Below, one piece after another: positions 21,584 to 49,949 of a DNA stretch of 50,700 bases (its first letter is position 1; the number at the start of each line of letters is the position of its first letter). Under the pieces are notes generated by a model. It saw only the letters and a program-made list of their open reading frames with translations. It did not search any database and was not told the DNA's origin. The position numbers and the translations under genes are program-made. Source of the stretch: a virus; IMG/VR virus record IMGVR_UViG_3300030419_003714, positions 1 to 50,700 of that record; one strand, 5' to 3'.

Positions 21584-21594
21584 TATTTCAACTC

Positions 21595-30753: not shown

Positions 30754-30986
30754 ATTGGCAGCTTTGCACTATTAATTTTCAACAATCTTTGATCCTCTGC
30801 ATCTGCTTGAATTTTGCTTTTGAGAACTTGGCTACCCTTAATCAAACTAGCAATGGTTTCTATTTCAATATTTGCAGTGCGTGCATAATCCAAACACGCA
30901 TCCAGATACGTCATCTTTTTTTCTTTAACTATTTTTTCTACCTCTGCAACGAATTGCGTTGGCGTTCTTATGTTGTTTTGTATCAT
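30750..30986 (-). CDS. 33: Late transcription coactivator gp33-like
   Basis: This 78-residue protein starts from the ATG at 30986, which overlaps the upstream stop in an ATGA. A longer frame would start at 31040 inside the upstream gene. The pattern TPTQFVAEVEKIVKEKKMTY, LDACLDYARTANIEIETIAS, LIKGSQVLKSKI, ending SAKLPI, matches the small gp33 of marine T4-like phages; T4 gp33 has 112 residues. gp33 bridges host RNA polymerase and the sliding clamp so that late promoters (TATAAATA) can be used, in line with late octamers seen elsewhere in the window. Confidence 0.7.
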   Translation of the reverse strand: MIQNNIRTPTQFVAEVEKIVKEKKMTYLDACLDYARTANIEIETIASLIKGSQVLKSKIQADAEDQRLLKINSAKLPI

Positions 30987-32370: not shown

Positions 32371-33049
32371 TCTTCATATCCAGCTCTTCATCTTTCCATA
32401 GATGAGAATACATAGTTTCTTGATAATCATCAAACCATGGACCACCATCAGTATAATGTATTGCCTTGGGTTCAGTCAAGTGATAATAACCATCTAAACA
32501 ATTCCATTCAAGAGGTAAGCTACCTATCTTGTCTGTCCAATTTATATGATGAAAGTCAATTCCAGGTCTCCAGTCGTTTAGACGCTCTGGTGTTAACCAT
32601 TGGTTATCTGGATGTGCGTTATTGAATACCATTAAGCTAGCCCAATTCTTTCTATATGATCTATGCTGGACTATCTTATCCATCTTTACTAATGAATGTG
32701 GAATATACTCTGGGTGCTTGACTAATGATACAGCACAATCTGGATCAATATATTTCTCTAACTCCCATATAGGTGCTTGAAACAAAAAGTCACAATCCAC
32801 AAATACACTATACCCTTTATACTTACTTAGGTAAGGCACCCAAAATCTAGTAAATGTAAAGTCAGTTGATTGAGGTTCACCCCAATCTCTTTTGTATTCT
32901 GATATATCCTGACTTCTTAATTTTATAATTTCAATATCAGTAGGCGTACGTTGTTCAATACTAAACTTACAAACTTCGTATGCCCTATGTTCTCTTTCCT
33001 CGTAACCTATGTAAATTTGGGATATTGAGGTATTGTTCAAATTGTCCAT
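32360..33049 (-). CDS. GT8-like glycosyltransferase
   Basis: This 229-residue protein resembles small phage and bacterial GT8-type transferases. It has QIYIGYEEREHRAYEVCKFS at the start, FTFTRFWVPYL, the DxD motif in YSVFVDCDFLF (Asp-Cys-Asp), SLMVFNN and a C-terminal IHYTDGGPWFDD that matches the H-x-x-G-x-x-P-W region of the family. The start overlaps the upstream gene by 65 bp, unusual even here, but no later Met would keep the first strand. Its end overlaps the GT-A gene by 11 bp. Probable role: adding sugar to a phage or host surface component. Confidence 0.65.
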   Translation of the reverse strand: MDNLNNTSISQIYIGYEEREHRAYEVCKFSIEQRTPTDIEIIKLRSQDISEYKRDWGEPQSTDFTFTRFWVPYLSKYKGYSVFVDCDFLFQAPIWELEKYIDPDCAVSLVKHPEYIPHSLVKMDKIVQHRSYRKNWASLMVFNNAHPDNQWLTPERLNDWRPGIDFHHINWTDKIGSLPLEWNCLDGYYHLTEPKAIHYTDGGPWFDDYQETMYSHLWKDEELDMKNGQ

Positions 33050-33797
33050 CTAATTCACCTAACCTATTTAATGATTTATCTCTCAATTGCTGAGGGTTCT
33101 TAGAAATCAAATCTTTGATCTCTAATTTGCTACTTACTGTTGCCCATTGAAATGATCTAGCTGTTATTTTCTTTTCTGAGTATATCAACATAGGGCATCT
33201 AAGATATCTTGCAACCCACATTGTTGAACCATGATATCCGATAGCTAAAAAACATTTTCTGTATATATCTATTACGTCTGCAATTGGTGTTTCATAACCA
33301 ACATGCTTTACTTCCATACCCCACTTGTCATTGATCTCTTGCTCTAATTGCTGCCACTTAACTAACCCTGCTGGGTCTTTCCACGTCTTAGACTTACCAC
33401 CATACTCTTCTAATGTTTGCTTATGTGTTGCAGTAGTGTTCATTGCAATATAAGGTCTACTATTATCCATGTTACGGATTCTAGCATGCCAAAAATTATG
33501 AAACATATCACTATCATCATAATTAGTATGATTGAAATCTAACTTAGATTGAAATTTGTGATTGATTTTAACTTGGTGGTAGTTAACTGGACTTGCTATT
33601 TTGGCAAGATGTTTTGCTCTTTGATCTAATGATTCTGGATCTTCGGGTTTATATTTCATACCTTTTTTATGAGGCCAATGAAATATTAACTCTACATCAC
33701 AACAATTTTTTTGGGCCATTGAATGAGCATAGCAGATTGGTGAAACAATATCTCCATAACCAATCTTACCCTTCCAATCAATCTTTACTACCTTCAT
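32985..33797 (-). CDS. GT-B type glycosyltransferase-like protein (heptosyltransferase/GT9-like)
   Basis: This protein has 270 residues starting at the ATG at 33797, which overlaps the IscA stop in an ATGA. The N-terminus (MKVVKIDWKGKIGYGDIVSP) resembles the glycine loop of GT-B heptosyltransferases. The C-terminal IYRKCFLAIGYHGSTMWVAR, then YLRCPMLIYSEK matches the nucleotide-sugar site of GT9-like proteins. Between them are TTATHKQTLEEYGGKSKTWK and a Trp-rich helix. Subfamily assignment is uncertain. It is the first of three glycosyltransferase-like genes in this operon. Confidence 0.55.
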   Translation of the reverse strand: MKVVKIDWKGKIGYGDIVSPICYAHSMAQKNCCDVELIFHWPHKKGMKYKPEDPESLDQRAKHLAKIASPVNYHQVKINHKFQSKLDFNHTNYDDSDMFHNFWHARIRNMDNSRPYIAMNTTATHKQTLEEYGGKSKTWKDPAGLVKWQQLEQEINDKWGMEVKHVGYETPIADVIDIYRKCFLAIGYHGSTMWVARYLRCPMLIYSEKKITARSFQWATVSSKLEIKDLISKNPQQLRDKSLNRLGELDGQFEQYLNIPNLHRLRGKRT

Positions 33798-34120
33798 ACA
33801 CCAAAACTTTCTCCACACCCACAACTACTACTAGCCATTGGGTTCTTTATAGTCAAATATGATCCTTCAATTGATTTATTGTAATCAACAGTACTTCCTA
33901 GTATATACATTTCACAGACTGGGTCAACAAGTAATATATCCTCTACTTCGATCCACTTAGTCTCAACATCTTTTTCTTTCCACTCATCAGTTGTACCCCA
34001 CTTATAGGTAAACCCAGCGCACCCACCACCATTGATTGTCAATGTGATGTGTCCGTCATCTGGCCTTACGCTGTCGAGGTAGTCCTTTGCAGCATCTGTC
34101 ATTTCTACTATTTGTGACAT
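33794..34120 (-). CDS. A-type Fe-S cluster carrier (IscA/ErpA/HesB family)
   Basis: This 108-residue protein has the full IscA pattern: EMTDAAKDYLDSV, then LTINGGGCAGFTYKWG (Cys34) and the C-terminal SSSCGCGESFG (Cys100 and Cys102). These three cysteines bind or transfer the Fe-S cluster in characterised members. Phage copies are known from marine myoviruses. Here it precedes the glycosyltransferase genes, but it could serve the four radical SAM proteins further right, each of which needs at least one [4Fe-4S] cluster. The stop overlaps the next start (ATGA). Confidence 0.9.
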   Translation of the reverse strand: MSQIVEMTDAAKDYLDSVRPDDGHITLTINGGGCAGFTYKWGTTDEWKEKDVETKWIEVEDILLVDPVCEMYILGSTVDYNKSIEGSYLTIKNPMASSSCGCGESFGV

Positions 34121-37234: not shown

Positions 37235-37263
37235 ATAGCATAATAGAATGAATGGAGATTATT

Positions 37264-38115
37264 ATGATATTGGTTGATTTAAACCAGGTTATGATATCCA
37301 ATTTGATGGTCCAGATTGGTGGCCAAAAAAATGTGGAGCTTGACGAAGGCTTATTTCGTCATATGATTTTGAATAGCCTGAAGGCTGCTAGAAAAAAGTT
37401 TAATGGGAGTTTTGGTGAATTAGTGATTTGCTGTGACGACAAAAACTTCTGGCGCCGTCAAAGGTTCGAATACTATAAAGCGAACCGTAAAAAGTATAGA
37501 GAACAATCTGATATAGATTGGTCAAATGTATTCAACATCCTTAACAAAGTTAGAGATGAGATTGATACATATTTTCCTTACAAAGTAATTAGAGTTAGTA
37601 CAGCAGAAGCTGATGATATCATTGCTACGTTGGTCAAACTTAATCACGAAGAAGCAACATTGATATTGTCTGGTGATAAAGACTTTATTCAATTACATAA
37701 GTATCCTAAGGTAAAACAATATGATCCAGTCCATAAAAGATGGATCAAAGATAAGGATCCTAGCAGATATCTAATTGAGCATATAGCAAGAGGAGATAGA
37801 GGTGATGGTATTCCTAACTATATTTCATCAGACTCATGTTTTGTCAATGGAACAAGACAGAAACCTTTACGAGCTAAATACCTTAGTAAGTTGGAAGGAA
37901 CTGTTGACCAAGTTGAGAATTCGTTTGAAGATGAAGAAGAAAAACGTGGTTGGATTCGAAATAGAATGTTAATTGATTTGGAATACATACCAGAAGACAT
38001 ACAGCAACAAGTAGTAAATAAATTTGATGTCCCGGATAAGGGTCGTGATAAGATGTTTAACTACTTTATTAAATTTAAACTTAAACATTTAATGGAAGAT
38101 ATAAGCGAGTTTTAA
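37264..38115 (+). CDS. rnh: RNase H / 5'-3' exonuclease (T4 Rnh-type, FEN family)
   Basis: This 283-residue protein is read from the ATG at 37264, preferred over 37252 because GGAG lies 7 bases upstream. FEN-type active-site motifs are present: ILVDLNQVM (first Asp), VICCDDKNFWRRQRFEYYKA, STAEADDIIATLV (Glu and Asp pair), LILSGDKDFIQL and the ARGDRGDGIPN helix-3-turn. In T4 (305 residues) it removes RNA primers and flap DNA during lagging-strand synthesis, stimulated by gp32. The next gene starts 2 bases after its stop. Confidence 0.92.
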   Translation: MILVDLNQVMISNLMVQIGGQKNVELDEGLFRHMILNSLKAARKKFNGSFGELVICCDDKNFWRRQRFEYYKANRKKYREQSDIDWSNVFNILNKVRDEIDTYFPYKVIRVSTAEADDIIATLVKLNHEEATLILSGDKDFIQLHKYPKVKQYDPVHKRWIKDKDPSRYLIEHIARGDRGDGIPNYISSDSCFVNGTRQKPLRAKYLSKLEGTVDQVENSFEDEEEKRGWIRNRMLIDLEYIPEDIQQQVVNKFDVPDKGRDKMFNYFIKFKLKHLMEDISEF

Positions 38116-38117
38116 TA

Positions 38118-38558
38118 ATGAGTGGAAACACAATGGGCATGGCTGAGGCCCTTAAAGCAGCCCGCAAGACTAAGAATGTTACTCAGAAAGTAGAAGCCTT
38201 ACAGGCACTACCCGAGGAAACAAAACAACACCTGCATGGTGTTTTTCAACTAGCATACAATCCTCATATTTCATGGTTGTTACCTCCTGGTACACCTCCA
38301 TACAAACCTTTGGATCCTGATACTGATCAAGAGGGTAGGTTGATTGCTGAGTTAAAAAACTTTTCATATTTCATAGCAAATGATGGAAAACCTGTGCAAC
38401 CAGATGCTAAGCAAATGAGGCGCGAACAATTGTTTATTAGAATACTAGAATCGATTGAGCCTGAAGATGCTGAGCTTGTAATTCAAATGAAGGATAGAGA
38501 AATAAAAGGAGTAAGTAAAAACGTAGTTTCAAAAGCGTTTCCAGAATTAGGTTTGTAG
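38118..38558 (+). CDS. Conserved T4-like phage protein (DUF6433-type)
   Basis: This 146-residue protein (MAEALKAARKTKNVTQKVEA, then LQALPEETKQHLHGVFQLAY, FSYFIANDGKPVQPDAKQMR, REQLFIRILESIEPEDAELV) matches a family I remember as DUF6433, common beside replication genes of T4-like phages. The predicted fold is all-helical with a conserved C-terminal GVSKNVVSKAFPE. Function unknown. It follows the RNase H gene by 2 bp. Confidence 0.7.
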   Translation: MSGNTMGMAEALKAARKTKNVTQKVEALQALPEETKQHLHGVFQLAYNPHISWLLPPGTPPYKPLDPDTDQEGRLIAELKNFSYFIANDGKPVQPDAKQMRREQLFIRILESIEPEDAELVIQMKDREIKGVSKNVVSKAFPELGL

Positions 38559-38586
38559 TATACACTAGCCCAGAGGAGGACAACCA

Positions 38587-38787
38587 GTGGCGAAGACTAA
38601 AGAACTAATGTTTCATTCCAACAATTTTTTTGACGAACAAGCAATTAGAGAAGATGAAGGAGTCTCTAAGAAGCAATTAAAAAGAACCAAACTCCGAAAA
38701 ACCAAAAACCGAATAGACCGAGCATTGAAGAACCGTGATTGGGATCAGCTCGAAGAGCTTGAAGGTTATAACATTAACGTAAAGTGA
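38587..38787 (+). CDS. Small basic helical protein, unknown
   Basis: This 66-residue protein starts with GTG (38587-38589) behind a strong GAGGAGG ribosome binding site. The sequence is a very basic helix (KKQLKRTKLRKTKNRIDRAL, then KNRDWDQLEELEGYN) after an acidic/aromatic start (MFHSNNFFDEQAIREDEG). It could bind nucleic acid, but no family is recognised. It sits between the DUF6433-type and FmdB-like genes. Confidence 0.6.
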   Translation: MAKTKELMFHSNNFFDEQAIREDEGVSKKQLKRTKLRKTKNRIDRALKNRDWDQLEELEGYNINVK

Positions 38788-38793
38788 ATTAAT

Positions 38794-39039
38794 ATGCCTT
38801 TATACGATATTAGAAATAAGAACACCGGTGCGGTGGAAGAAATGCAAATGACAATTGCCGAGAAAGAAGAATTTCTGAGACAGAATGAGCACTTAGAACA
38901 AGTATTAGGAATGCCTAAAATTGTTTCTGGTGTTGATGGATTACGTAAGACTGATGATAGTTTCAGAGATATACTTAGAAATATTGATAAAAAACATAAG
39001 AGTCGAAAGAACACTATGAACAAGAATGCAGATTTCTAA
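38794..39039 (+). CDS. FmdB-like small protein lacking zinc cysteines
   Basis: This 81-residue protein begins MPLYDIRNKNTGAVEEMQMT, which resembles the FmdB/zinc-ribbon opening (MPLYEY-C--C-) but has no cysteine. The later part (AEKEEFLRQNEHLEQVLGMP, KIVSGVDGLRKTDDSFRDIL) is typical of the phage version of this family. Function unknown. Its stop overlaps the next start (TAATG). Confidence 0.65.
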   Translation: MPLYDIRNKNTGAVEEMQMTIAEKEEFLRQNEHLEQVLGMPKIVSGVDGLRKTDDSFRDILRNIDKKHKSRKNTMNKNADF

Positions 39040-39698
39040 TGTTTGTTCATAAAGAAGGGTTCGATTACCAAGAACTAAAGACAAAGAATATAGACGGTAA
39101 AAGACACTATGTTACACCTAATGGTAATTACCCTTCAGTTACTACTGTAACATCTCTTGCTATTAAAGATGGTATTAAAGCATGGAGAGAGCGTGTAGGT
39201 GAACAAGAAGCAAACAAGATTTCTAACCAAGCTGCTCGTAGGGGTACAAAAGTTCATAAGATATGTGAAGATTATTTAAATAATATAGACATTGATTATT
39301 CTGAAATTGAACCTATCAATCACTTTCTTTTCAAACAAATTAAACCAATATTAGATATACGTCTTGATGAGGTGTATGGTTTAGAAGTGCCTTTATATAG
39401 TGACTTCCTTAGAGTTGCTGGTAGAGTCGACTTAGTTGGTAAGTGGGATGGTAAGGCCTCAATTATAGACTTCAAAACTGCATCAAAGAGAAAAAGACGA
39501 GATTGGATTACTAACTACTTTATGCAAGAATCTGCATATGCGGTTATGTTTGAAGAGATGTTTGATATACCTGTTAGTCAAATAGTAACTATTATAGCTG
39601 TTGAAGCTGATGAGCCTCAATTATTTGTTGAGAAGAGAGATGATTGGATTAGTGGTTTTATAGAGTTAAGAGATAGATGGGAAGCTACTGCCAATTAA
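39039..39698 (+). CDS. PD-(D/E)XK exonuclease (RecB/Cas4-like)
   Basis: This 219-residue protein has the RecB-nuclease layout: ARRGTKVHKICEDYL (His for metal), EVYGLEVPLYSDFLRVAGRV and DLVGKWDGKASIIDFKTASK (Asp ... Asp-x-Lys core), then a basic KRKRRDWITNYFMQESAYAV that carries the Gln/Tyr motif. Such phage nucleases act in recombination and host-DNA degradation. Its last 14 bases overlap the end of the convergent 2-oxoglutarate oxygenase gene. Confidence 0.82.
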   Translation: MFVHKEGFDYQELKTKNIDGKRHYVTPNGNYPSVTTVTSLAIKDGIKAWRERVGEQEANKISNQAARRGTKVHKICEDYLNNIDIDYSEIEPINHFLFKQIKPILDIRLDEVYGLEVPLYSDFLRVAGRVDLVGKWDGKASIIDFKTASKRKRRDWITNYFMQESAYAVMFEEMFDIPVSQIVTIIAVEADEPQLFVEKRDDWISGFIELRDRWEATAN

Positions 39699-40692
39699 GA
39701 AGATTCTTAACTTTTCTTTCACCGTCAACCTTATCAGCAAATTGATCTTCGGTAATATAATTACCATTCCATAAAACTTTATCTCTAGGTTTACCTGTCT
39801 CTGGATATATTCTATCCAAGTATGTAACCATTCGTACTAGTGTTCTTTTATTGCCATGCTGTACGTTTGTTGGTCTTGCATGTAAAGTGATCACTTGATC
39901 CATAAACATTATCTGGCCATCTTCCCAATCGTGAACATATATGTATTCAGGTTTGTTTATTTTACTCCAGATATATTTTTTTAAGTCTGCACTCTCATCA
40001 ACAGACATTCCTCTAAACTTATAAAAGCTATGGCTTGGAAATTTAATTCCTTCAACACCTGATGCTGTTTTATCTTTTAGTGGTGACTCCATGCCATCTA
40101 ATGGAACTTGATTGTATCTAATAATTTCTTTTTGGTCTGGATCAAGATCATTACACATTGTTCCATCATCCCATTTGTAAACACTTATAAGCTCATCTAC
40201 CATAGACTTATCTTCGTGATTCAAACTCTGATAGGCATTTGCTGTACATAAGAATGATGTCTGGCTATTCTTTGTGCCATACAACGACATCAATGCTATT
40301 ACTTTTTGTGATTGGTGATTAGCTTGTTGGTCACTATGCCAATCTAATTCACCACTAGTGAATAATCCTAAAGGCTTGTTTGTCTTTTCATCTCTATCAA
40401 AGCTGACTCTACTATAATGTACATTTTCTTTGAACCTATCTTTATAAGGCTTTGTAATATAGCTAAGATTAACAAGATGCTTTCGCCAGTGTCTACCAGT
40501 AAGTTTCTTTTCTAAAATATATGTGTGAATTAATTCACGTGATGGTTGACCCCAAAGATTTAGTATCTGTTGTAGTCTAGGTTCTTCAACACTATCATTT
40601 ACAAATACTACACAATTACTAGCAACTGTTTTACCTAGTTCTGTGCATTGCCAATCATCTCGTAAGTCAACTTCAATAGGTTTTATTTCCAT
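39685..40692 (-). CDS. TauD/TfdA-like 2-oxoglutarate/Fe(II) dioxygenase
   Basis: This 335-residue protein has the double-stranded beta-helix iron site HSD (SGELDWHSDQQ; His119 and Asp121), a distal His271 in MFMDQVITLHARPTNV and an Arg shortly after (NKRTLVRMV) for binding 2-oxoglutarate. TauD-type enzymes hydroxylate small molecules or amino-acid residues using O2 and 2-oxoglutarate. The N-terminal ~100 residues and a YVHDWEDGQI strand are also consistent. It is the last gene of the long minus-strand operon, overlapping the previous gene by 10 bp, and its end runs convergently into the nuclease gene. Confidence 0.8.
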   Translation of the reverse strand: MEIKPIEVDLRDDWQCTELGKTVASNCVVFVNDSVEEPRLQQILNLWGQPSRELIHTYILEKKLTGRHWRKHLVNLSYITKPYKDRFKENVHYSRVSFDRDEKTNKPLGLFTSGELDWHSDQQANHQSQKVIALMSLYGTKNSQTSFLCTANAYQSLNHEDKSMVDELISVYKWDDGTMCNDLDPDQKEIIRYNQVPLDGMESPLKDKTASGVEGIKFPSHSFYKFRGMSVDESADLKKYIWSKINKPEYIYVHDWEDGQIMFMDQVITLHARPTNVQHGNKRTLVRMVTYLDRIYPETGKPRDKVLWNGNYITEDQFADKVDGERKVKNLLNWQ

Positions 40693-41330
40693 TCCTTTGC
40701 TCCCGGATATACTTCAGCATACGTTGGAGCATGCCCCCAAATATATCTATATATTTTTTTCTTAATTCTGTCTTCTGTGTTCTTCCAAAGGTACATTGTA
40801 ATTACTGCTCTAGGTATAGGAGCATTCCATGGTGTACCACAATGATACTCATCCCAATCAAACACACACATTCTATTAGGTTTAATTCTACATATCTTTG
40901 GATCTTCTGTTTCGTTTTTCCATCTTCCATAAAATTCAGTATTGCCACCCCATCCTTGCTCCCATTTTGGAACACAGTAGAATAATATTCTTTTCATTTG
41001 ATCTTGCTTACCAATATATTGATCTTCAAAGAAATCATAATGACGTGTATGAGCAAAATCTTTTGGGTGCATAAGTAAACCTACAAAGTCATCAAGTATC
41101 TCATAGTCAGGATACATCTCTTGTATTGTATGTAAAAAATTACTTGCTTTATGTAAAGGAAATCTTGCTAAAGGAAAGTATTTAATTGGTTCTTGTCCTC
41201 TGTGTTTCAAAACCATATTCTGAAACCTAAGAGTAGGAGATTTTGTTTGGAAGGTCCATTTATTAGTAGTAAAGTAATTATATAATTTATTTACTTCTTC
41301 CATTGATATGACATTATCAACAATGTTCAT
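40683..41330 (-). CDS. Prolyl-4-hydroxylase-like 2-oxoglutarate/Fe(II) oxygenase
   Basis: This 215-residue protein has the HxD site in FAHTRHYDFFED (His97, Asp99), a central FYCVPKWEQGWGGNTEFYGR typical of P4H-like enzymes, then PNRMCVFDWDEYHCGTPWNA with the distal His163 and PIPRAVITMYLW with Arg174. This class hydroxylates Pro, Lys or other residues in proteins or small molecules. It lies between the GNAT-like gene and the TauD-like gene with overlaps on both sides. Confidence 0.82.
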   Translation of the reverse strand: MNIVDNVISMEEVNKLYNYFTTNKWTFQTKSPTLRFQNMVLKHRGQEPIKYFPLARFPLHKASNFLHTIQEMYPDYEILDDFVGLLMHPKDFAHTRHYDFFEDQYIGKQDQMKRILFYCVPKWEQGWGGNTEFYGRWKNETEDPKICRIKPNRMCVFDWDEYHCGTPWNAPIPRAVITMYLWKNTEDRIKKKIYRYIWGHAPTYAEVYPGAKEWK

Positions 41331-41922
41331 TTTTTAACAATCCACCTTTATCAATCCACCACGAGGCGTTTTCTTCTATTAACTTAAATATAACTTGTTC
41401 TTTATAAAATAAAACACAAGTCCCTAATTCATCCCACATAGGAGGAATACCTCTCCTCTTACAATATTTAACCTCGTTTAATCTTGTTACTCTCGCTATC
41501 TTATCCATTTGAGGACTACTGTCGTTTCTAACATTAGCAGTCAACATTAATCTTTTAGCCCCTCTTGCAAAACACCATCTTCTTAATGGCTGCGCAAGTT
41601 GTTGAACATATAAATTATGTCCCATATATCTATTGAATGGCATAACATGATAGTATTCTGGTAGTGTGGCAGCTCTAAAAAATAATCTAAAGTCTTTATC
41701 CTTAATAATACTATCAGCGTTACTAGCAAACAATTCTTGAGCTCCTGCTACAGAAGCTATCTCACCATCAACAAATATTAACCAAAACTGAACATTTGGA
41801 TCTTCGAGTTTCATTGCCTCGAAAGACTCATTGAGTCTCCAACCAAGTTGTTTGCATTTATTACAAAATATTGCTAACTCAGGTTTGTATTCTTCACTGT
41901 ATCTTACTACCTCAATGCCCAT
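41317..41922 (-). CDS. GNAT-like N-acyltransferase
   Basis: This protein has 201 residues from the ATG at 41922; a longer frame to 41970 would overlap the previous gene more. The opening (MGIEVVRYSEEYKPELAIFC), QFWLIFVDGEIASVAGAQEL, FRLFFRAATLPEYYHVMPF and WCFARGAKRLMLTANVRNDS follow the strand-helix order of the GNAT fold, although the acetyl-CoA pyrophosphate loop (R/Q-x-x-G-x-G/A) is not clear. It may act on an amine or amino-sugar in this pathway. Start and end overlap both neighbours (11 and 14 bp). Confidence 0.55.
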   Translation of the reverse strand: MGIEVVRYSEEYKPELAIFCNKCKQLGWRLNESFEAMKLEDPNVQFWLIFVDGEIASVAGAQELFASNADSIIKDKDFRLFFRAATLPEYYHVMPFNRYMGHNLYVQQLAQPLRRWCFARGAKRLMLTANVRNDSSPQMDKIARVTRLNEVKYCKRRGIPPMWDELGTCVLFYKEQVIFKLIEENASWWIDKGGLLKNEHC

Positions 41923-42166
41923 TTTTCTTGGTATTGAATATCTTATCGAATGATGTCCAAGCATTATCAACGATTCTCATTTGCCTTCTTGTAAGAGCAA
42001 TACCGTCATCATCTTTTAAATCTTGAAACATAATTAACAGATCTTGATAAAAACGTGTTATGTCTGCATCATCCCAAGTCTTCAGATTAACTTGTAACCT
42101 CGAAGTAGTTTTTAATATGTTCTGCTTCTCTTCATATTGAGCAGCCCATTCTAATCCTCCACTCAT
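41912..42166 (-). CDS. Small helical protein in the radical SAM operon, unknown
   Basis: This 84-residue protein starts at the ATG at 42166, which overlaps the GT4 stop in an ATGA and has an AAGGA site upstream; the longer frame is not favoured. The sequence (MSGGLEWAAQYEEKQNILKT, then WDDADITRFYQDLLIMFQDL, RRQMRIVDNAWTSFDKIF) is a compact helical fold with a few Trp. It may be a partner or carrier of the modification genes, but nothing is recognisable. Confidence 0.5.
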   Translation of the reverse strand: MSGGLEWAAQYEEKQNILKTTSRLQVNLKTWDDADITRFYQDLLIMFQDLKDDDGIALTRRQMRIVDNAWTSFDKIFNTKKNGH

Positions 42167-43173
42167 AATAATCCTTCCAACATAGCTTTCCATTGCATAG
42201 CTCTAACATCCCAATTGTAAAAACCATTGGTATATCTTTGCTGCATGTTAAGCCTATCTTTCATAAATTGTTGATCTACCACTTTAACTGCATTAAGCAA
42301 ATTATCGGCAAATATGTTACAGTGCTTTTGAGGATCCTCAGTTATAGGATACATCATTGTCCAATTTGCTGCTGTTTCTGGCAATGCAGCAAATGCACTA
42401 TGGACACACAACAAGCCAGCTGACATCGCTTCTATCAAAGCTATACATGATGTCTCAGGCCATATTGATGGGTACGCGAAGATATGCATCTTCTCTAATT
42501 CTTTTTTCATATCTTTATTAGTTAGTGTATGATTATATGTAATGAAGTCATGGTTTCTACATTCATCAAATAATTTTACGTAAGGTTTATTTCTTTCTGG
42601 CCATCCATATATGTTAAAGTCTGAATACACATGAAGATGAACAGGCTTATCCATTTTCTTAAAGTATTGGTCATGCAATTGTTTGAACGTAGGAACAAGA
42701 AGTTCAAGACCTCTATGAGGTGTTGTGTGATAACATATGTTAATTACATCATCAGGTTTCTTATGTTCTGGTATAGGTTCAATTGCATTCTGCAATACAA
42801 CACTTTTACTATATGGAATATTAAGAAAGTTTTTAAACTGCTGTAATTGCCAATGACTAACAAAAACCAACTTCTCAAACTTTAAGTCTTCTGCCTTAAC
42901 ATTTTCCAAATGTTTAGTTTCAGGATCCCCAGCAAGATCATGGTTCCATAGAATTGGAATTCTGTCTGGATCAATATCTCTTACTCTGGATGGAATTATT
43001 TGAAACTTTTCTAATAGCTCTTTAGGTAGCCTTTCATACAGGCCATACTTCATTAACTCAGTACCACCCATTGCATTTCTATCAAGCTCATTCTGTTCTA
43101 TTATTTGTTTATCTTTAGGCAAATTGCCTTTAGTGCCTTTGCCTTTAGAATCTTCAATAATCAACTCAACCAT
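42163..43173 (-). CDS. GT4-type glycosyltransferase (GT-B fold)
   Basis: This 336-residue protein has GT4 features: RNAMGGTELMKYGLYERLPK (acceptor-side N-terminus), KLVFVSHWQLQQF, the linker VVLQNAIEPIPEHKKPDDVI, YHTTPHRGLELLVPTFKQLH and the donor site YPSIWPETSCIALIEAMSAG with the E-x7-E pair. It transfers a sugar from a nucleotide donor. Its start overlaps the glutaredoxin stop by 8 bp, and its end is ATGA-coupled to the small protein after it. It is a relative of LPS and glycan transferases rather than a DNA-modifying enzyme as far as can be judged. Confidence 0.8.
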   Translation of the reverse strand: MVELIIEDSKGKGTKGNLPKDKQIIEQNELDRNAMGGTELMKYGLYERLPKELLEKFQIIPSRVRDIDPDRIPILWNHDLAGDPETKHLENVKAEDLKFEKLVFVSHWQLQQFKNFLNIPYSKSVVLQNAIEPIPEHKKPDDVINICYHTTPHRGLELLVPTFKQLHDQYFKKMDKPVHLHVYSDFNIYGWPERNKPYVKLFDECRNHDFITYNHTLTNKDMKKELEKMHIFAYPSIWPETSCIALIEAMSAGLLCVHSAFAALPETAANWTMMYPITEDPQKHCNIFADNLLNAVKVVDQQFMKDRLNMQQRYTNGFYNWDVRAMQWKAMLEGLL

Positions 43174-43411
43174 GTTCTCTAAAACTTTCTGTATAATCTA
43201 AAAGATCCTCAAAGCCACCAATTAGTTTACCATCTGGTGCAAAGATTTGAGGATACGTTAATCTCATTTCATTCAATCCTGATCTAGCTATCAACTCTTC
43301 TCTAGTCTTTTGTGTTTGAGATATTTCCTCAAACGGAAGTTCAAGTCTATCTAACTCAGCTTTTGCCATGTCACAATAGTTACACAGCTCTCTAGTATAT
43401 ATCTGGTACAT
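43166..43411 (-). CDS. Glutaredoxin
   Basis: This 81-residue protein shows the glutaredoxin fold: MYQIYTRELCNYCDMAKAEL with the CNYC active site (Cys10, Cys13), LPFEEISQT, a cis-Pro in RLTYPQIFAPDGK and GGFEDLLDYT. It reduces disulfides with glutathione. Here it may serve the neighbouring oxygenases and radical SAM proteins, or ribonucleotide reductase as in T4. The gene overlaps radical SAM protein A by one base. Confidence 0.9.
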   Translation of the reverse strand: MYQIYTRELCNYCDMAKAELDRLELPFEEISQTQKTREELIARSGLNEMRLTYPQIFAPDGKLIGGFEDLLDYTESFREHG

Positions 43412-44721
43412 TATTCAAACTCCTTAAATATGGGAAACGTGTCATAGAAACTCGTTCCTCTTATTTTATCTAACTCAGTATGCCATTGTTTAAATACAGT
43501 ATAGTGATCTTGCCCATGTAGTTCTCCTAGATATTCATTATCCTGTAAAAGATTTGGAAGTTGCATTGTTGCATTAAGACTCCATTCAAAATTATCTCTT
43601 ACTTCTTTTATGTTGCTATCACAATCAGTAGTAAATTTACTAAACCACTTATTGTATTTTTCTATTATAATATCATTTGCTTTTTCAGGCAACGTTTTTA
43701 TTCCACATCTTTCCGGAAAATGTATTATATTTATTATTGGCATCCCACCAAAATTTCTACCAACTTTTTGAAATCTTTGTTTTATAACCCAATCGATAAA
43801 GTCTGGATAATAATATAAGTTATAATTTCCAATAGATGGCATTAACTCAAATGAAATATTATCATCTTTATTATTATCAGACCAATTTAAAAACTTTAAA
43901 AACTGTGACCACTTTACAGGATAGCGAACATAATCATTTCTCTCTCCTACATCATCTACAGATAAGTTAACAGTTATGTATTTAAAGTTTTTCCATAATT
44001 CAATTATTTTATTAGGTATCGATTGAGCACAATTAGTATTGTAATATAATATTTTATCTTTGGCTATATTTTTTTCAATACAATGTTCTAATATCTGTTC
44101 TGTTCTTTTTGTTATAAATGGTTCCCCACCTGACACAGCTATAAAATCTGATCTTTCTATTATTGGATATATTTTTTTCTCCCACATTGCATTGTCTTTA
44201 ATCCAATTAAAATCTCTAACGTCAAGTCCGTCCCATCCTAAATTATTATTAATTTGCTTATGGAGGGATCTCAATGCAGAACTATTCCAGGGTGAACATG
44301 GAACACATTGACCAGTGCACGTATTGCCTAACGATATTTGTAAAGTACTTGATTGATTAGACACTCTACCATCTTTATCAGTAACATCATTAACAAACTT
44401 TCGGTAGTATTTCATATCTCTACCTGCTCGTATTCTAGAATTACTAATATATTGTTGTCTCATAGACATACCATCTATATTTTTCTCTTCATTATAACAC
44501 ACATTACATGGCTTGCTCTTTCGCCCTGCAAGCATATTCAATCTGATCTCTCTCATTTCAGAGCCATTCCATTCCATATCACCACGAGCAGGACCAAAAC
44601 TTCTACAGCACAAACTTTCTGAACCATCTGTTTCAAAGTATTGATGTTCCCAAGGTACTGGACAAAAGGTAGGTGATATAGTATCAGTCTCACTTTTAAT
44701 ATTAAATGCAGTGTGGCTCAT
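43411..44721 (-). CDS. Radical SAM protein A with N-terminal cysteine-rich twitch-like domain
   Basis: This 436-residue protein has the radical SAM [4Fe-4S] motif CxxxCxxC at Cys135, Cys139 and Cys142 (ISLGNTCTGQCVPCSPW), followed by FIAVSGGEPFITK (SAM-binding GGE) and NLSVDDVGERNDYVRY. In front of it lies a ~110-residue region with Cys20, Cys38-Cys39 and Cys72/Cys75 (SKPCNVCYN), the pattern of an extra Fe-S cluster domain of the SPASM/twitch kind, here at the N-terminus. Two neighbours share this layout. The C-terminus ends in helical IRGTSFYDTFP-type sequence, also shared. Substrate unknown. Confidence 0.82.
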   Translation of the reverse strand: MSHTAFNIKSETDTISPTFCPVPWEHQYFETDGSESLCCRSFGPARGDMEWNGSEMREIRLNMLAGRKSKPCNVCYNEEKNIDGMSMRQQYISNSRIRAGRDMKYYRKFVNDVTDKDGRVSNQSSTLQISLGNTCTGQCVPCSPWNSSALRSLHKQINNNLGWDGLDVRDFNWIKDNAMWEKKIYPIIERSDFIAVSGGEPFITKRTEQILEHCIEKNIAKDKILYYNTNCAQSIPNKIIELWKNFKYITVNLSVDDVGERNDYVRYPVKWSQFLKFLNWSDNNKDDNISFELMPSIGNYNLYYYPDFIDWVIKQRFQKVGRNFGGMPIINIIHFPERCGIKTLPEKANDIIIEKYNKWFSKFTTDCDSNIKEVRDNFEWSLNATMQLPNLLQDNEYLGELHGQDHYTVFKQWHTELDKIRGTSFYDTFPIFKEFE

Positions 44722-45698
44722 ATTTTTCTCTTAGAGACTATCATATCAGTATCACAAAAACAAAGTTTGTATGGACATATAGTTGGTTCTGTTGGCCATT
44801 GTATGTTTTCGAGATCATTAATATTACCAAAAAAATTTAATTCGTAACCATCACAAGTAGCTCTTGCTATTCTACCATCTCCTTGAATCCACAAAGACTT
44901 GATACCTACATCACACTCCCATCCTTTAAAATTATTTTGACGTGAGCGGGATAGCTTTGCAACATTAAAAAAAGCATCATAATCAGTATTAACCTGAGTG
45001 TGGTCAGAATATTCTATTATAGATTTGCTAGGTATAAATTGATCACTTGGTGCACCAAATCTAATATCTAATTCATCAATAATTTTATTTTGTTCGTCTG
45101 TGTAATAAGTATCAGCCAAAGCAGGGTCTTCCATAAAGTTTGTTTTAAGATGTACAATTCTTACAGGCTCTACTACTTTTATGTTTGCAGTACTTAATGT
45201 TTTGTGTATTTCTAAGCAATGATCCCAATGGTTAGGATCCATCATTACTCTTACTATTATAGGTATGTCTTTTGCTAAGGTTTCAACTTTTGAAAACCAT
45301 ACTTCTCTTTGTTTATCTGTTTTGATTACATTTGAGTGATAAGTTGCAGCTATGTATCCTACTCTTCCAATCCAGCTCTTATATGCTTCTAAATTTTTAC
45401 TTACATTTGAAATCACACCAGTAGTGAAACCATTATTGTGAAACTTATCAATTAATTGATTTATATAAGGAAATGTAGAAGGCTCACCACCTGTAAAGTC
45501 AATATGACCATACTCAAATCTTTTGATAACCTCATCAGCCATTCTATCATATACGTCCCAGGAAAATGGTGCTGTCTCTTTACTACCCCAAGTAAATTCA
45601 TCACAATAAAAACATTTAAATGGGCAATGTAAATTAACCTGCCATTGAATCCATTTGAAAGGCTTATCATTAAAATATGTTGATATACTTTTTATCAT
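44718..45698 (-). CDS. Radical SAM protein B (shorter, C-terminal Cys cluster)
   Basis: This 326-residue protein has CxxxCxxC near the start (WQVNLHCPFKCFYCDEF; Cys25, Cys29, Cys32), FEYGHIDFTGGEPSTFPYIN and the HxxxxT-type SNVSKNLEAY strand. It lacks the N-terminal Cys-rich domain of its three neighbours. Instead it carries C-terminal cysteines (GWECDVG, RATCDGY, ICPYKLCFC) that look like a twitch/SPASM auxiliary cluster in the usual place. It is ATGA-coupled to both flanking radical SAM genes. Different architecture suggests a different reaction within the same pathway. Confidence 0.82.
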   Translation of the reverse strand: MIKSISTYFNDKPFKWIQWQVNLHCPFKCFYCDEFTWGSKETAPFSWDVYDRMADEVIKRFEYGHIDFTGGEPSTFPYINQLIDKFHNNGFTTGVISNVSKNLEAYKSWIGRVGYIAATYHSNVIKTDKQREVWFSKVETLAKDIPIIVRVMMDPNHWDHCLEIHKTLSTANIKVVEPVRIVHLKTNFMEDPALADTYYTDEQNKIIDELDIRFGAPSDQFIPSKSIIEYSDHTQVNTDYDAFFNVAKLSRSRQNNFKGWECDVGIKSLWIQGDGRIARATCDGYELNFFGNINDLENIQWPTEPTICPYKLCFCDTDMIVSKRKI

Positions 45699-46939
45699 AT
45701 CAGTTTATATAATTCCGGAAACGTCTTATCGAATTTTGTACCTCTAATGTCATCCATTTTTTGTGTGTATTTTTTAAACTCACCAAAATGTTTTGATTTG
45801 TCTTCACTCATCATAAAATCTTTTACTGCATATATTTGGTTAAGACCATACCATGGTTCACTAAAACTATTATACCAATCATCATATTTTTTAGCTATCA
45901 CTTCTTTAATATTTATAGGTAAAACTTTACAGTTCATATATGTAGGTCCATGAACATAACCAATAAATGGAAGACCTCTAAGAGGTGAATTATTTTGTTT
46001 ACCTATTTTAACAAACTTTTGATTTTGTATCCATTCAACAAACTCTGGCATATAGAAAACATTAATAGCATTGATAGTACAATTCATACGAGGTCCAATA
46101 TTATCTGGTGTGTTATCTACTATATATAATGTGTCAAGTATGTCATTCCAACGATCCGGGTATCTTATATAACTATTCTTATCTTCATAACAATCTATTG
46201 ACATACTCAGATCTATGTGTTTGAATTCATTCCAAAGTTCAAATATTCTATTTGTTGGTGTGATGGTAGCATTGGTATGATATCTTATTTTTATATTCTT
46301 GGCACAACCTTCTTCTACTATTTTTTCTAGTAATGGAATATGCTGTTTAAGGTACATAGGTTCACCACCAGCAAGAATTAAATGTTTTACATTTGGAAGT
46401 AATGGTAAGAATTGTTCATTCCAAAAATCTTGATCTTCAACCCAATTAAACTTACTTGTATCCCATTCATTAATTTGTCCTAACTTCTTAGCTAAGCCAA
46501 CCCATTTACTACTATCTTTAGGACCGCACATTACACATTGTAAGTTACAAGTATTACCTAATCTAAAATCAAACGATATAGGTGATGCATCTAATGTACC
46601 ATCGTTGTTTGTAAAATCTAAAAGCATCTCTAAATAACTTGGACCTATATGACCTTCATTATCACCTTCTTCATCTATCCATAAATGGTTTTGAATTTCT
46701 CTATGAGACTTTACACCACCTGCTTCTTCATCATAGCACTTAGTACACGCACTAACTTTTTCACCTTTAAGCATCTTTAATCTTGCTTGTTTATAATGCT
46801 CACCGTTCCATATATCTGTTATTGTATCTTTATTAAGATTACCAGCACTCTCTTTAGCTACACAGCACATGAGAGCATCACCAGTAGTATATGTTGCCAT
46901 ATGAACCCAAGGCTTAATGCAAAACGTATCACTTATCAT
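45695..46939 (-). CDS. Radical SAM protein C with N-terminal cysteine-rich twitch-like domain
   Basis: This 414-residue protein has a radical SAM motif at Cys131, Cys135 and Cys138 (RLGNTCNLQCVMCGPK), then HLILAGGEPMYLKQHI and DLSMSIDCYEDKNSYIRY. Its N-terminus has Cys7, Cys25-Cys26 and Cys65/Cys68 (SACTKCYDEE), aligning with proteins A and D. The closing DDIRGTKFDKTFPELYKL matches the end of protein A. The start overlaps gene D by 11 bp, and the end is ATGA-coupled to gene B. A, C and D appear to be paralogues that have diverged within the operon. Confidence 0.83.
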   Translation of the reverse strand: MISDTFCIKPWVHMATYTTGDALMCCVAKESAGNLNKDTITDIWNGEHYKQARLKMLKGEKVSACTKCYDEEAGGVKSHREIQNHLWIDEEGDNEGHIGPSYLEMLLDFTNNDGTLDASPISFDFRLGNTCNLQCVMCGPKDSSKWVGLAKKLGQINEWDTSKFNWVEDQDFWNEQFLPLLPNVKHLILAGGEPMYLKQHIPLLEKIVEEGCAKNIKIRYHTNATITPTNRIFELWNEFKHIDLSMSIDCYEDKNSYIRYPDRWNDILDTLYIVDNTPDNIGPRMNCTINAINVFYMPEFVEWIQNQKFVKIGKQNNSPLRGLPFIGYVHGPTYMNCKVLPINIKEVIAKKYDDWYNSFSEPWYGLNQIYAVKDFMMSEDKSKHFGEFKKYTQKMDDIRGTKFDKTFPELYKLI

Positions 46940-48221
46940 CTTTTATCATTTCATAAACATCAGGAATATAATCCTTAAACTTTTGTTTGCGTTTGTTGTC
47001 TATAAGATCAGTCATGTCCCAAAAGTCTGTAATGTTTTCTTTCCAATTTTCATTTCTATTATTTTCCAATACATTGAGATACGAATCAACTGAGTTTTTT
47101 GTTATTTGAGATTTTTCATATAACCATGACTCTTGTACTCTTTGTAATTTTAAAAAAGCTAGGTTTCTTACTTCTTCGTTAAAATTGGATACATCGAGAT
47201 ATGTTGGATGTGTGACATATAAAAAGTCAATGTCAATTACTCTATCTTGTTTTCTACTAACCTCTTCACCAAACTCAATTATTTTATCTATATTCAATAT
47301 GTTGAATATTTGAATTGCTGGTGACATATTTAATTTGACATTGGGTAGGCGACCCAACGCTATAAAGTTCTTTTTGATGGTCTGCCAATGTGACGGTGCT
47401 CTTATATAATCATTAACAAGACCTGTACCATCTATACTAGCTTGTATTTGTACGTGTCTAAACTTACTTAACATTTCTAAAAATCTTGGTTGTGCATTAG
47501 TACAATTTGTATTAAACATTAAGTCTACTTTATCCTGGACACCTTTATCAACCATCTCTTGCATGAAGTCATAAGTAGATTGAAGTAATGTAGGTTCACC
47601 ACCTGTAAAATAAACTTTTTTCAAATTAGGAACATAGCCATTTAACTCATTCCAAAATTCTGGAGCTTCAACCCAATCCATAGGAAACGGATCACTGTCC
47701 GGACTTGTATGTGGCCATTGCTTAGCCCACATATCAACATACCTATTACTTTTCCTTAATGAGTGATGTTCTTTTTCTATCTGATTACTATTAAATACAT
47801 TACACATTCTACATTTAAGATTACATAAATTACCTAATCTCAAATCAAGATAATCTGGAGGAGTAGATAAGTATCCATCATTCTCTTCTGTTTCCTTCAC
47901 ACGTCTTAATATTTCTTCTTTACCTAATCTTTGTGTCCATTCACTATTGTGTCTATGTCTATAGCTATCCTTACCAGTGTCTTCTTGAAACCAACACTTA
48001 TTACATACATCTAATTTCTCACCTTTAACCATTGCCTTTCTAACATCACGAAGGCTTTTTGCATTCCATGCTTCTGTTGGTGTTGTATTACCAGCATACA
48101 CTGCCTTACCTTCATCATCAAGTAAGTGTGCACGCCATGCTATACAACAAAAGCCATATGTTCCAGGATTGTTGACCATAAGGTTGGTCCATGGGTGTAC
48201 GCAAAATGTTTTGGATATCAT
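46929..48221 (-). CDS. Radical SAM protein D with N-terminal cysteine-rich twitch-like domain
   Basis: This 430-residue protein starts at the ATG at 48221, which overlaps the AspH-like gene stop in an ATGA. N-terminal cysteines are Cys7, Cys25-Cys26 and Cys73/Cys76 (DVCNKCWFQ). The radical SAM motif is Cys133, Cys137 and Cys140 (LRLGNLCNLKCRMCNVF), with KKVYFTGGEPTLLQ and HVQIQASIDGTGLVNDYIRA after it. It is the first of the four radical SAM genes. Like A and C it has an insert of ~40 residues between the two cysteine regions and a long C-terminal helical tail. Confidence 0.83.
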   Translation of the reverse strand: MISKTFCVHPWTNLMVNNPGTYGFCCIAWRAHLLDDEGKAVYAGNTTPTEAWNAKSLRDVRKAMVKGEKLDVCNKCWFQEDTGKDSYRHRHNSEWTQRLGKEEILRRVKETEENDGYLSTPPDYLDLRLGNLCNLKCRMCNVFNSNQIEKEHHSLRKSNRYVDMWAKQWPHTSPDSDPFPMDWVEAPEFWNELNGYVPNLKKVYFTGGEPTLLQSTYDFMQEMVDKGVQDKVDLMFNTNCTNAQPRFLEMLSKFRHVQIQASIDGTGLVNDYIRAPSHWQTIKKNFIALGRLPNVKLNMSPAIQIFNILNIDKIIEFGEEVSRKQDRVIDIDFLYVTHPTYLDVSNFNEEVRNLAFLKLQRVQESWLYEKSQITKNSVDSYLNVLENNRNENWKENITDFWDMTDLIDNKRKQKFKDYIPDVYEMIKDDK

Positions 48222-48790
48222 TTCAGTACAACACACAATAAATTATATCTGTGATCTAGGCCTGCATTAAATGCTGTGTGAGGTTTGGTTGTATCTACCA
48301 TATAGGCGCTGCCATCAGCTGGTAGAAAATATGCCCTATCATTTACAACAAGTTTGTTGCCAGGGTTAGATATAATTGGTATATGAATACGTTTAGTGGG
48401 ATCTTTATGTAATGTGAGACAGTGTAGAGCATGTATTTTTACAACACGCATACGTCCTATGGTATATTGTGTATTAAGCTCTTTAAACACCTCATAAAAA
48501 TATGTGTGTTTTGCTTTATCAATAAATTCAAAGAAGTCTTGTTCAACTAACCCAGGTGGTGGAACTTGCCTTCTTGCTACCCCTTGTGTTGTAGCAAAAT
48601 ATTCGTATGCTAATGAACCTGCACCTTGATAATAATAATCATCCGGATGTGGTTTGGCAAATGGAGCGTGTGTCAAGCATAGCTGATTTACTCTATTAAT
48701 ATCTGCATGTTCTAATAACCAGTCTAATGATTCTTTTAGTTTATCAACATCAAATTGGAAATCAAGTTTCTGTACGTTTTTGTCGTTCAT
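48218..48790 (-). CDS. Aspartyl/asparaginyl beta-hydroxylase-like (AspH cupin) oxygenase
   Basis: This 190-residue protein ends in the AspH/LpxO-type catalytic region. RVVKIHALHCLTLHKDPTKR carries His128 and Asp130, IHIPIISNPG is the following strand, and MVDTTKPHTAFNAGLDHRYN carries His171 and Arg181. AspH-like enzymes use iron and hydroxylate Asp or Asn residues or lipid A chains; some members need only two His. This is the third 2-oxoglutarate oxygenase in the operon and directly precedes radical SAM D. Its start overlaps the DUF6356-like gene by 29 bp. Confidence 0.75.
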   Translation of the reverse strand: MNDKNVQKLDFQFDVDKLKESLDWLLEHADINRVNQLCLTHAPFAKPHPDDYYYQGAGSLAYEYFATTQGVARRQVPPPGLVEQDFFEFIDKAKHTYFYEVFKELNTQYTIGRMRVVKIHALHCLTLHKDPTKRIHIPIISNPGNKLVVNDRAYFLPADGSAYMVDTTKPHTAFNAGLDHRYNLLCVVLK

Positions 48791-49145
48791 TGTTTAGCCT
48801 ACGAAGTTCTATAAGATCCGGATGCATATATCCAGGTTTCTTATGTTTAGTTGCTAGAAGCTCTTCGTCGAGTTGTTGTATGAACTCAAAACTTAATATA
48901 CGTTGAAGTTCTTCTCTGTGTCTACGAGACTCAACTAGCTTCTTAAACGATTTAATAATAAAGGTAGACGTGTTAAATGGAAAGAGATATGGGACAAAAC
49001 CATGTATAATACCCACAAGCATATACCATAAACCCCTAGTAGAATTAACAACACTGAAAACCCCATGAGCCCAATAGCTCTGAGGATTGTCTGTAGAGCG
49101 TGGATGCTCGACGAATATTCTGTAAATCCATTCATTTATTCTCAT
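48762..49145 (-). CDS. Small membrane-associated protein (DUF6356-like)
   Basis: This 127-residue protein has an N-terminal segment with EHPRSTDNPQSYWAHGVFSV, a hydrophobic stretch (RGLWYMLVGIIHGFVPYLFP) and NTSTFIIKSFKKLVESRRH. This resembles DUF6356 proteins, where 'SYW-H-F...HALLPFLF' precedes a Lys/Arg-rich end. The C-terminal half is charged and helical. It may be an inner-membrane or membrane-surface protein. It overlaps the next gene by 29 bp and the previous by 14 bp. Confidence 0.6.
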   Translation of the reverse strand: MRINEWIYRIFVEHPRSTDNPQSYWAHGVFSVVNSTRGLWYMLVGIIHGFVPYLFPFNTSTFIIKSFKKLVESRRHREELQRILSFEFIQQLDEELLATKHKKPGYMHPDLIELRRLNNERQKRTET

Positions 49146-49329
49146 CTTCTTCAGCCCATTTTAACATTTCAATTGGTATACCAGATTTTTCAGAAGCCCG
49201 CTCATACATCAAATCTTTTGGAATGAAGGTCTGACCACTTTTAGGATCTTCGTATAATACAGCATGCTTGGCTTCTTTCAAAGCAGCTAATGCACGAGCC
49301 TTTACAGTCATGGTCATTCCTTCAGTCAT
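49132..49329 (-). CDS. Small charged protein, unknown
   Basis: This 65-residue protein (MTEGMTMTVKARALAALKEA, then KHAVLYEDPKSGQTFIPKDL) starts in an ATGA overlap with the upstream stop. It has a basic helix followed by a short strand and an acidic C-terminus. No family recognised. It lies between two small genes in the run leading to the radical SAM cluster. Confidence 0.55.
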   Translation of the reverse strand: MTEGMTMTVKARALAALKEAKHAVLYEDPKSGQTFIPKDLMYERASEKSGIPIEMLKWAEEDENK

Positions 49330-49694
49330 TCTATTTGTTGTTCTTTCTCCTGCTGACTTCTAATATCTCGTTGTTTTTCATCTCTATAAAGTTGGTAGTC
49401 TCTTGGTTCTATTGCTTCTTCAGGTCCTATTCTCCATGTCTTACCATCATCATCTTCTGGTGTGCGTTGTGTTGTATCACATCCTGCAGAGTGAATTTTT
49501 ATTTCATCTGGATTAGTTGTCTCAAAATCTATTCTTTCATCATAATAAGGACCGACTGTGTTTTGAAATGTATATACTAACATCTGTTGACAAAAGTCTG
49601 CACTTATATTTTTCTTATATGGGGCACTTTCAAATTTAGTACAATCACCTTGAAAGCACATTATTATCCATGCCACATACCAAACGGTTGGCAT
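49326..49694 (-). CDS. Small Cys-containing protein with hydrophobic N-terminus
   Basis: This 122-residue protein begins with a hydrophobic run (MPTVWYVAWIIMCFQGDC) that may be a short membrane anchor or signal. The rest is hydrophilic with two Cys (SADFCQQ and SAGCDTT) and a Glu/Arg/Gln-rich end (YRDEKQRDIRSQQEKEQQIE). If exported, the cysteines could form disulfides. The start lies immediately after the previous stop (TAAATG). Function unknown. Confidence 0.55.
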   Translation of the reverse strand: MPTVWYVAWIIMCFQGDCTKFESAPYKKNISADFCQQMLVYTFQNTVGPYYDERIDFETTNPDEIKIHSAGCDTTQRTPEDDDGKTWRIGPEEAIEPRDYQLYRDEKQRDIRSQQEKEQQIE

Positions 49695-49949
49695 TTATTC
49701 CTCCGTGGAAGTACTCTCGTCCTCCTGTTTCGGGTCGCGATCACCGGTCGTGGTTGCCAAAATGGATACCAATAAAGGATCGCGCTCCTTACGTAACCAT
49801 GTTTGGATATAATTCATTTCCATTTCATCAAGACCAAAATCTTGAACATGGAATCTAATAGTAGTGTCAATTAAAGCTGCTAGCTTTAGCACCTTCTTAT
49901 CAACTGCATCCATATTTGTATCTGGATTGCTGTTATCATTATCAGCCAT
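49695..49949 (-). CDS. Small acidic protein, unknown
   Basis: This 84-residue protein has acidic ends (MADNDNSNPDTNMDAVDKKV and DPKQEDESTSTEE) around a helical core (LAALIDTTIRFHVQDFGLDE, MEMNYIQTWL). A ribosome binding site (GAGGAAT) precedes the start. A late-promoter octamer lies 22 bases upstream, so expression may be late. No family recognised. Confidence 0.55.
   Translation of the reverse strand: MADNDNSNPDTNMDAVDKKVLKLAALIDTTIRFHVQDFGLDEMEMNYIQTWLRKERDPLLVSILATTTGDRDPKQEDESTSTEE

Follow-up and report, generated by a model that had tools for sequence, protein, structure and literature searches.

In a 50.7-kb window of viral DNA, by which we mean the whole stretch analysed (IMG/VR record IMGVR_UViG_3300030419_003714, positions 1 to 50,700), a block of eleven genes combines four radical S-adenosylmethionine (SAM) proteins and three 2-oxoglutarate oxygenases with a GNAT-like protein, a glutaredoxin, a GT4-type glycosyltransferase and a small conserved protein. 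By comparing this block with its counterparts in other viruses and in bacterial chromosomes, we found that the genes other than the glutaredoxin and the GT4 constitute a mosaic cassette that is inserted around these two in one particular clade of GT4s. Our tentative reading, for which we would put the chances a little short of even, is that the cassette encodes a tailoring pathway for a GT4-linked sugar, with the host envelope and the virion both being possible sites of the product.

The block is not a product of chance, since its gene order recurs at the same site in roughly twelve distinct viral contigs among the IMG/VR relatives, where it is bordered on one side by the same small conserved genes and on the other by a convergent flank with nuclease and RNase H. 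The usual core consists of the oxygenase P0001, the radical SAM proteins A and C, the glutaredoxin, the GT4 and the small protein P0008 (Table 1), and the variable parts are the radical SAM proteins B and D, an Asp_Arg_Hydrox protein of about 538 aa, the TauD-type oxygenase and two 3' modules. Module I (a GNAT and a 2OG-FeII_Oxy_3 oxygenase, with or without TauD) is present in ten distinct contigs including the window, and module II (a fatty acid desaturase, an Asp_Arg_Hydrox oxygenase and another GNAT-like protein) in five. The two are mutually exclusive in that no contig has both, where it should be kept in mind that the contigs are fragments, so that absence of a gene is weak evidence. TauD itself occurs, among the cassette loci, in the window and in one relative (L012), whose homologue conserves the iron and 2-oxoglutarate residues (HxD...H and a distal R). 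The same plan is found in a 128-kb contig (G816), in which a NodU-type carbamoyltransferase, six radical SAM genes of the type of A, C and D (N_Twi, see below), one gene of the B type, a glutaredoxin, a GT4 (58% identical) and a 77-aa protein precede the same nuclease flank. The expanded cassette of this contig (L256, G816:C1:14000-33000) holds, besides the six N_Twi genes and the carbamoyltransferase, a PhyH oxygenase and a QueC-like protein. An earlier sequence-only reading of the window, made without database searches, had proposed one pathway of very likely co-translated genes. The co-occurrence on which that proposal depends is indeed found in other phage genomes, and rare co-occurrence following independent acquisition is not the case, but the set is modular and not fixed, as any of B, D, TauD and the GNAT/oxygenase module can be missing.

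The glutaredoxin and the GT4 have a different history. Forty-odd other GT4 contigs are devoid of an N_Twi gene, and most of these keep the glutaredoxin directly before or near the GT4. Likewise, in the isolates DLP6 and phiM12 a GT4 homologue (42-48% identity) has a glutaredoxin next to it or close by, whereas no radical SAM or 2-oxoglutarate oxygenase genes are annotated in the neighbourhood shown. Since most relatives and these isolates have the pair but no radical SAM genes, the pair predates the cassette, i.e. glutaredoxin and GT4 are ancestral residents of the site. In the GT4 tree, the 14 N_Twi-associated GT4s make up a single clade (support 93/86, 92% of bootstrap trees). The earlier assignment of both proteins to their families, which Pfam bears out, and their co-inheritance with the radical SAM genes in one clade stand, while their inclusion in one set with those genes does not extend to most relatives. 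The GT4 has a GT-B C-terminal domain (GT1/GT4 Pfam family), and E240 and E248 of its EX7E motif are invariant in the 4 sequences compared. P0008 belongs with the GT4 as well, in that a weak homologue also follows an N_Twi-free GT4 (L082).

The families of the block were checked against Pfam, PHROGs and NCBIfam. Three of the four radical SAM proteins (A, C and D) score as members of NF033640 (N_Twi_rSAM, curated cutoff 170 bits), and B, at 17 bits, is a non-member and represents a different radical SAM type. The N-terminal cysteine-rich domain by which A, C and D had been recognised as diverged paralogues proves to be a SPASM/twitch domain in an N-terminal position (the Pfam SPASM match is over the cutoff in A and C, and below it in D). 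In 52 aligned N_Twi proteins, C131, C135 and C138 of the CxxxCxxC motif, together with C7, C25, C26, C65 and C68, are invariant, as is a GGE motif, so that the cysteine motifs are intact in relatives rather than degraded. Radical SAM B retains C25, C29 and C32 as well as the auxiliary C-terminal cysteines C262, C282, C308, C313 and C315 in all 3 sequences compared. No function of N_Twi enzymes was found in the literature, and none was found described for NF033640.

In the phages, a B-type radical SAM gene is present in 50 of the 69 distinct N_Twi loci and in none of the 38 GT4 loci without N_Twi, and a 2-oxoglutarate oxygenase in 45/69 against 2/38; this comparison set was selected by GT4 and is not random, which limits the support it lends to the sugar-tailoring reading. 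The counts were made with separate hidden Markov models, because single-linkage clusters had merged some families (cluster c1). About 590 or more viral contigs encode N_Twi relatives, with some 21 matches in one 328-kb phage genome, so that the chemistry of this block, which had been considered heavy for a lytic phage, is not unusual among marine T4-like phages, one published genome having 12 radical SAM genes (see below). Among cellular genomes, N_Twi is found in 41 of 144 Bdellovibrionota and is rare elsewhere (1/398 Pseudomonadota, a seed genome, and 1/244 Cyanobacteria, the seed). A close-relative search of genome contigs recovered no cellular relatives of radical SAM A, and the broader A2 profile found some. 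In Bdellovibrionota, relatives of predatory bacteria, N_Twi genes form multi-copy clusters (e.g. L173, L182, L184 and L194). A B-type radical SAM gene adjoins N_Twi in 11 of 20 Bdellovibrionota loci, compared to 0 of 18 control regions. That the partnership recurs both in phages and on chromosomes of bacteria speaks for a genuine multi-enzyme chemistry. One could also imagine that the genes are auxiliary genes that were acquired independently, share no common pathway and are packed together by genome compaction, as B, D, TauD and the 3' modules are gained and lost separately. However, the significant co-occurrence in phages, the association of N_Twi with the B type in Bdellovibrionota and the exchange of modules as a whole make this very unlikely. 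Another radical SAM cluster, in Vibrio phage K566 (L007, GenBank, 11971-21978), lies a few genes upstream of an annotated lipid A modifying PagP.

The strongest clue to function is provided by cellular fusions of N_Twi. In one (L198) the domain is fused to Wzt, the ATPase of an O-antigen exporter (ABC_tran plus Wzt_C), beside genes that by eye resemble rfbC, rfbD and a wzm-like permease; others are fused to a carbamoyltransferase (L181) or to a sulfotransferase (L196, L203). The neighbours of N_Twi in Bdellovibrionota include a GT2, a DegT/DnrJ aminotransferase and Polysacc_synt_2, and other radical SAM genes account for 19 of the 130 neighbours of cellular N_Twi against 2 of 130 in the controls. 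In the phage DLP6, genes for a methyltransferase, a nucleotide-sugar transferase and a GT29-like protein directly precede the glutaredoxin-GT4 pair. It is on account of the fusions, the Bdellovibrionota neighbours and these DLP6 sugar genes that we favour the tailoring of a sugar. The combination that is expected of a surface-glycan cluster, namely a glycosyltransferase with sugar-modifying partners, is present here in the form of the GT4 in the core and the carbamoyltransferase, Wzt and sulfotransferase partners in relatives. In such a pathway the GT4 would transfer the sugar, and the N_Twi enzymes and the B-type enzyme could bring about chemically difficult changes, such as C-H oxidation, epimerisation, deoxygenation or C-C bond formation, on the sugar itself, on its precursor or on its substituents. 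Hydroxylation would fall to the 2-oxoglutarate oxygenases, and the GNAT-like enzyme would add or change an acyl-type group, a part that might be taken in relatives by a GNAT with a desaturase or by a carbamoyltransferase. The product would end up on a glycan or lipid of the host envelope or on the virion, where it may alter recognition, superinfection or protection. The sequence-only reading had suggested a dedicated system for the modification of a protein or a small molecule; that there is one system agrees with our results, and among protein, sugar, lipid and DNA as conceivable targets the evidence gathered here points rather to a sugar.

Several observations weigh against this reading. Around cellular N_Twi, glycosyltransferases are enriched only modestly (6 of 130 neighbours, compared with 2 or fewer of 130 in controls), and carbamoyl- and sulfotransferases are also capable of using substrates other than sugars. 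As the glutaredoxin-GT4 pair stands alone in most relatives, the link between GT4 and the radical SAM genes rests on co-inheritance, and the cassette accompanies only 14 GT4s in the tree, several of which derive from shared metagenomes. Moreover, the closest solved folds to the radical SAM enzymes (CteB, SkfB, SuiB and anSME) are mostly peptide maturases, albeit at low TM-scores of about 0.32-0.40.

The latter point, and the fact that SPASM/twitch radical SAM enzymes typically modify peptides, speak for the modification of a virion protein, which we nevertheless consider rather unlikely. The radical SAM enzymes would cross-link or oxidise a tail protein that the oxygenases, the GNAT and the GT4 decorate further, with as candidate substrate the repeat protein at 2-1600, whose YTKIWSKDY-like units are rich in Trp/Tyr-x-Lys. 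This tail-region protein (minus strand; units of ~12 aa; 16% Tyr, 13% Lys, 9% Asp, 5% Trp) runs off the window edge and has relatives of up to 3160 aa. Trp/Tyr/Phe-x-Lys accounts for 12.9% of positions in the protein of the window and for 10-11% in that of the N_Twi-bearing G816, as compared to 5-6% in the homologue of the N_Twi-free G009 and 0.1% in cyanophage C48C1, a contrast of only two carriers with two non-carriers that is confounded by phylogeny and lysine content. Since most other N_Twi-rich contigs were not seen to have the repeat protein, we rejected it as a general N_Twi substrate and retain it as possible for this lineage only; the cellular fusions, in addition, indicate polysaccharides. 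A more specific variant, in which N_Twi enzymes form Trp/Tyr-Lys cross-links in YTKIWSKDY-type repeats by the hundred, the other enzymes add Asp hydroxylation, acylation and glycosylation, and the tail is hardened as a result, seems improbable; if true, it would be, to our knowledge, the first massively radical-SAM-modified virion protein.

The location of the block beside replication genes (RNase H, nuclease) brings up DNA hypermodification, in which the GT4 would glycosylate a modified base and the other enzymes would tailor that base against restriction. GT-B enzymes glycosylate T4 DNA, and the mosaic variety of the cassette would suit an arms race. On the other hand, the cellular partners of N_Twi are of the polysaccharide type, no member of the thymidylate-synthase/hydroxymethylase family was detected in the GT4 contigs of 127 and 149.5 kb or in the window (a fragment), and no Tet_JBP match exceeded the cutoff in the window or in the large GT4 contigs, which together leave little probability for this explanation.

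Sets of radical SAM enzymes, oxygenases and acyltransferases are typical of natural-product clusters, and viral N_Twi neighbourhoods contain, by eye, amidinotransferase-like, PP-loop and aminotransferase-like genes. The cassette might accordingly make a ribosomally synthesised and post-translationally modified peptide (RiPP) or another small molecule, to be secreted or used intracellularly during infection. Yet no exporter was found in the block, nor does it have a precursor peptide, for which the overlaps between the genes leave no gap; its only small protein, P0008, was ruled out as a precursor, as it follows the N_Twi-free GT4 of L082 and is without a conserved core-peptide signature. We deem this origin improbable.

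All three oxygenases, recognised as such in the earlier reading, retain their iron and 2-oxoglutarate residues (H128, D130, H171 and R181 of P0001 being invariant in 3 sequences). The closest solved relative of P0001 is the beta-hydroxylase Cpz10 (7v4f, profile match with E 9e-21), which belongs to the pathway of a nucleoside antibiotic (caprazamycin), where it hydroxylates an aminoacyl-nucleoside intermediate; the relationship fits small-molecule or sugar chemistry and is no proof of it. Remodelling of membrane lipids or lipid A would have the GNAT, the Asp_Arg_Hydrox hydroxylase and the desaturase act on an acyl chain or an ornithine-lipid-like molecule, to which the GT4 adds a head-group sugar. 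LpxO, OlsB and OlsC belong to such families, and the joining of desaturase, Asp_Arg_Hydrox oxygenase and GNAT renders this plausible for module II. Module I, which is the one in the window, lacks the desaturase, and Cpz10 acts on an aminoacyl nucleoside, so that for the cassette as a whole we hold lipid remodelling to be a poor prospect. The weak call of P0009 as GNAT-like is borne out by its predicted fold: Pfam matches were at best below the cutoff, and the AlphaFold2 model (pLDDT 78) has exclusively GNATs as top Foldseek matches. P0010 carries the PHROG name 'DNA endonuclease V', which, given the intact oxygenase residues of this protein, we take to be erroneous; a tblastn search of phage isolates with P0010 found nothing. 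Pfam matches to TIP41, RNA12 and Staphostatin were below the cutoff and were treated as chance.

The eleven ORFs (81-436 aa) lie as claimed on one strand, all start with ATG, and overlap successively by 4, 11, 4, 4, 1, 8, 4, 11, 14 and 10 bp. The count of eleven is thereby upheld over the ten that was also mentioned, whereas 48790 is not the start of the overlapping chain, as a 127-aa gene upstream of P0001 overlaps it by 29 bp and the chain extends to 49949. Two of the four small genes in this extension (84 and 122 aa) recur as flanks in relatives. At the other end, the RNase H/nuclease flank is the fixed boundary of the insertion site and is present in relatives with and without the cassette. 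The A-type Fe-S carrier encoded elsewhere in the window could possibly supply clusters; adjoining it, a second conserved cluster (29363-33824, minus strand) encodes aminotransferase-like, GT2-like and other, unassigned proteins, and several of its genes recur in cassette relatives. Tandem 138-bp repeats (26694-27075, plus strand) are present in a higher-GC region within a 683-aa ORF (25784-27835).

Table 1. Genes of the cassette and its surroundings in the window.
Feature	Position	Strand	Evidence or remark
Four small upstream genes, same overlapping chain	48762..49949	-	overlaps 0, 4, 14, 29 bp
P0001, 2-oxoglutarate oxygenase, Asp_Arg_Hydrox, 190 aa	48218..48790	-	PF05118 E 1.9e-6
P0002, radical SAM A, N-terminal SPASM/twitch (N_Twi)	46929..48221	-	NF033640 355 bits; CxxxCxxC and five N-terminal Cys invariant
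P0003, radical SAM C, N_Twi	45695..46939	-	NF033640 375 bits; AlphaFold2 pLDDT 93.7
P0004, radical SAM B, C-terminal cysteines, not N_Twi	44718..45698	-	PF04055 30.4 bits
P0005, radical SAM D, N_Twi	43411..44721	-	NF033640 270 bits
P0006, dithiol glutaredoxin	43166..43411	-	PF00462 E 1.9e-9; adjoins GT4 in relatives without radical SAM genes
P0007, GT4-type glycosyltransferase, cassette anchor	42163..43173	-	PF00534 E 2.5e-10; phrog_2170 E 2e-44
P0008, conserved 84-aa protein, longer ORF from 42193	41912..42166	-	directly 3' of GT4 wherever present
P0009, predicted GNAT-fold acyltransferase, 3' module I	41317..41922	-	AlphaFold2 model, Foldseek: PaiA, FeeM, aminoglycoside acetyltransferases
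P0010, 2OG-FeII_Oxy_3 oxygenase, 3' module I	40683..41330	-	PF13640 E 2.3e-8; H97/D99/H163/R174 invariant
P0011, TauD-type 2-oxoglutarate oxygenase, optional	39685..40692	-	PF02668 E 1.3e-15
Convergent flank: T4 RNase H homologue, two small genes, PD-(D/E)XK nuclease	37252..39698	+	Pfam
A-type Fe-S carrier	33794..34120	-	PF01521 E 1.8e-11

The window derives from a T4-like marine phage: besides the T4 RNase H homologue of the convergent flank, it encodes a gp6-like baseplate protein and a tail-fibre protein of the Peptidase_S74 type. T4-like marine viral genomes that have numerous radical SAM genes (one has 12 of them), an A-type carrier, a glutaredoxin and PaaD have been described (Nishimura 2017, PMC5332604). 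They resemble the window in the first three of these features, but the available part of that report frames them as Fe-S auxiliary genes and mentions neither a GT4-anchored cassette nor oxygenase modules nor a link to glycans. A small protein that by eye is MIP18/PaaD-like (L006, 1497-1790) is encoded on one of the cassette-bearing contigs, in parallel to the published paaD observation. In the host-recognition cluster of pelagimyophages, radical SAM cassettes vary between close genomes and are accompanied by lipopolysaccharide-type glycosyltransferases, an Asp/Asn hydroxylase as core gene and, in freshwater members, a desaturase; these cassettes reside in the tail-fibre cluster, whereas that of the window lies beside replication genes (PMC7029224). 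The baseplate gp6 of the pelagimyophage HTVC008M is only about 36% identical to that of the window, which is equally close to those of Cr30 and DLP6. Radical-SAM-rich T4-like marine phages and radical SAM cassettes in pelagimyophages are thus already published, and, as judged from those parts of the literature, the GT4 anchor, the mutually exclusive modules, the co-occurrence statistics, the cellular fusions and the distribution in Bdellovibrionota appear to be new.

Radical SAM genes are a frequent yet unexplained component of marine T4-like phage genomes, and a defined, conserved unit in which modules are exchanged around an anchor enzyme makes a testable pathway of them. Should this pathway yield exotic sugars at the surface or a modified tail, it would add a new chemical layer to the contact between phage and host and be a source of new enzymes.

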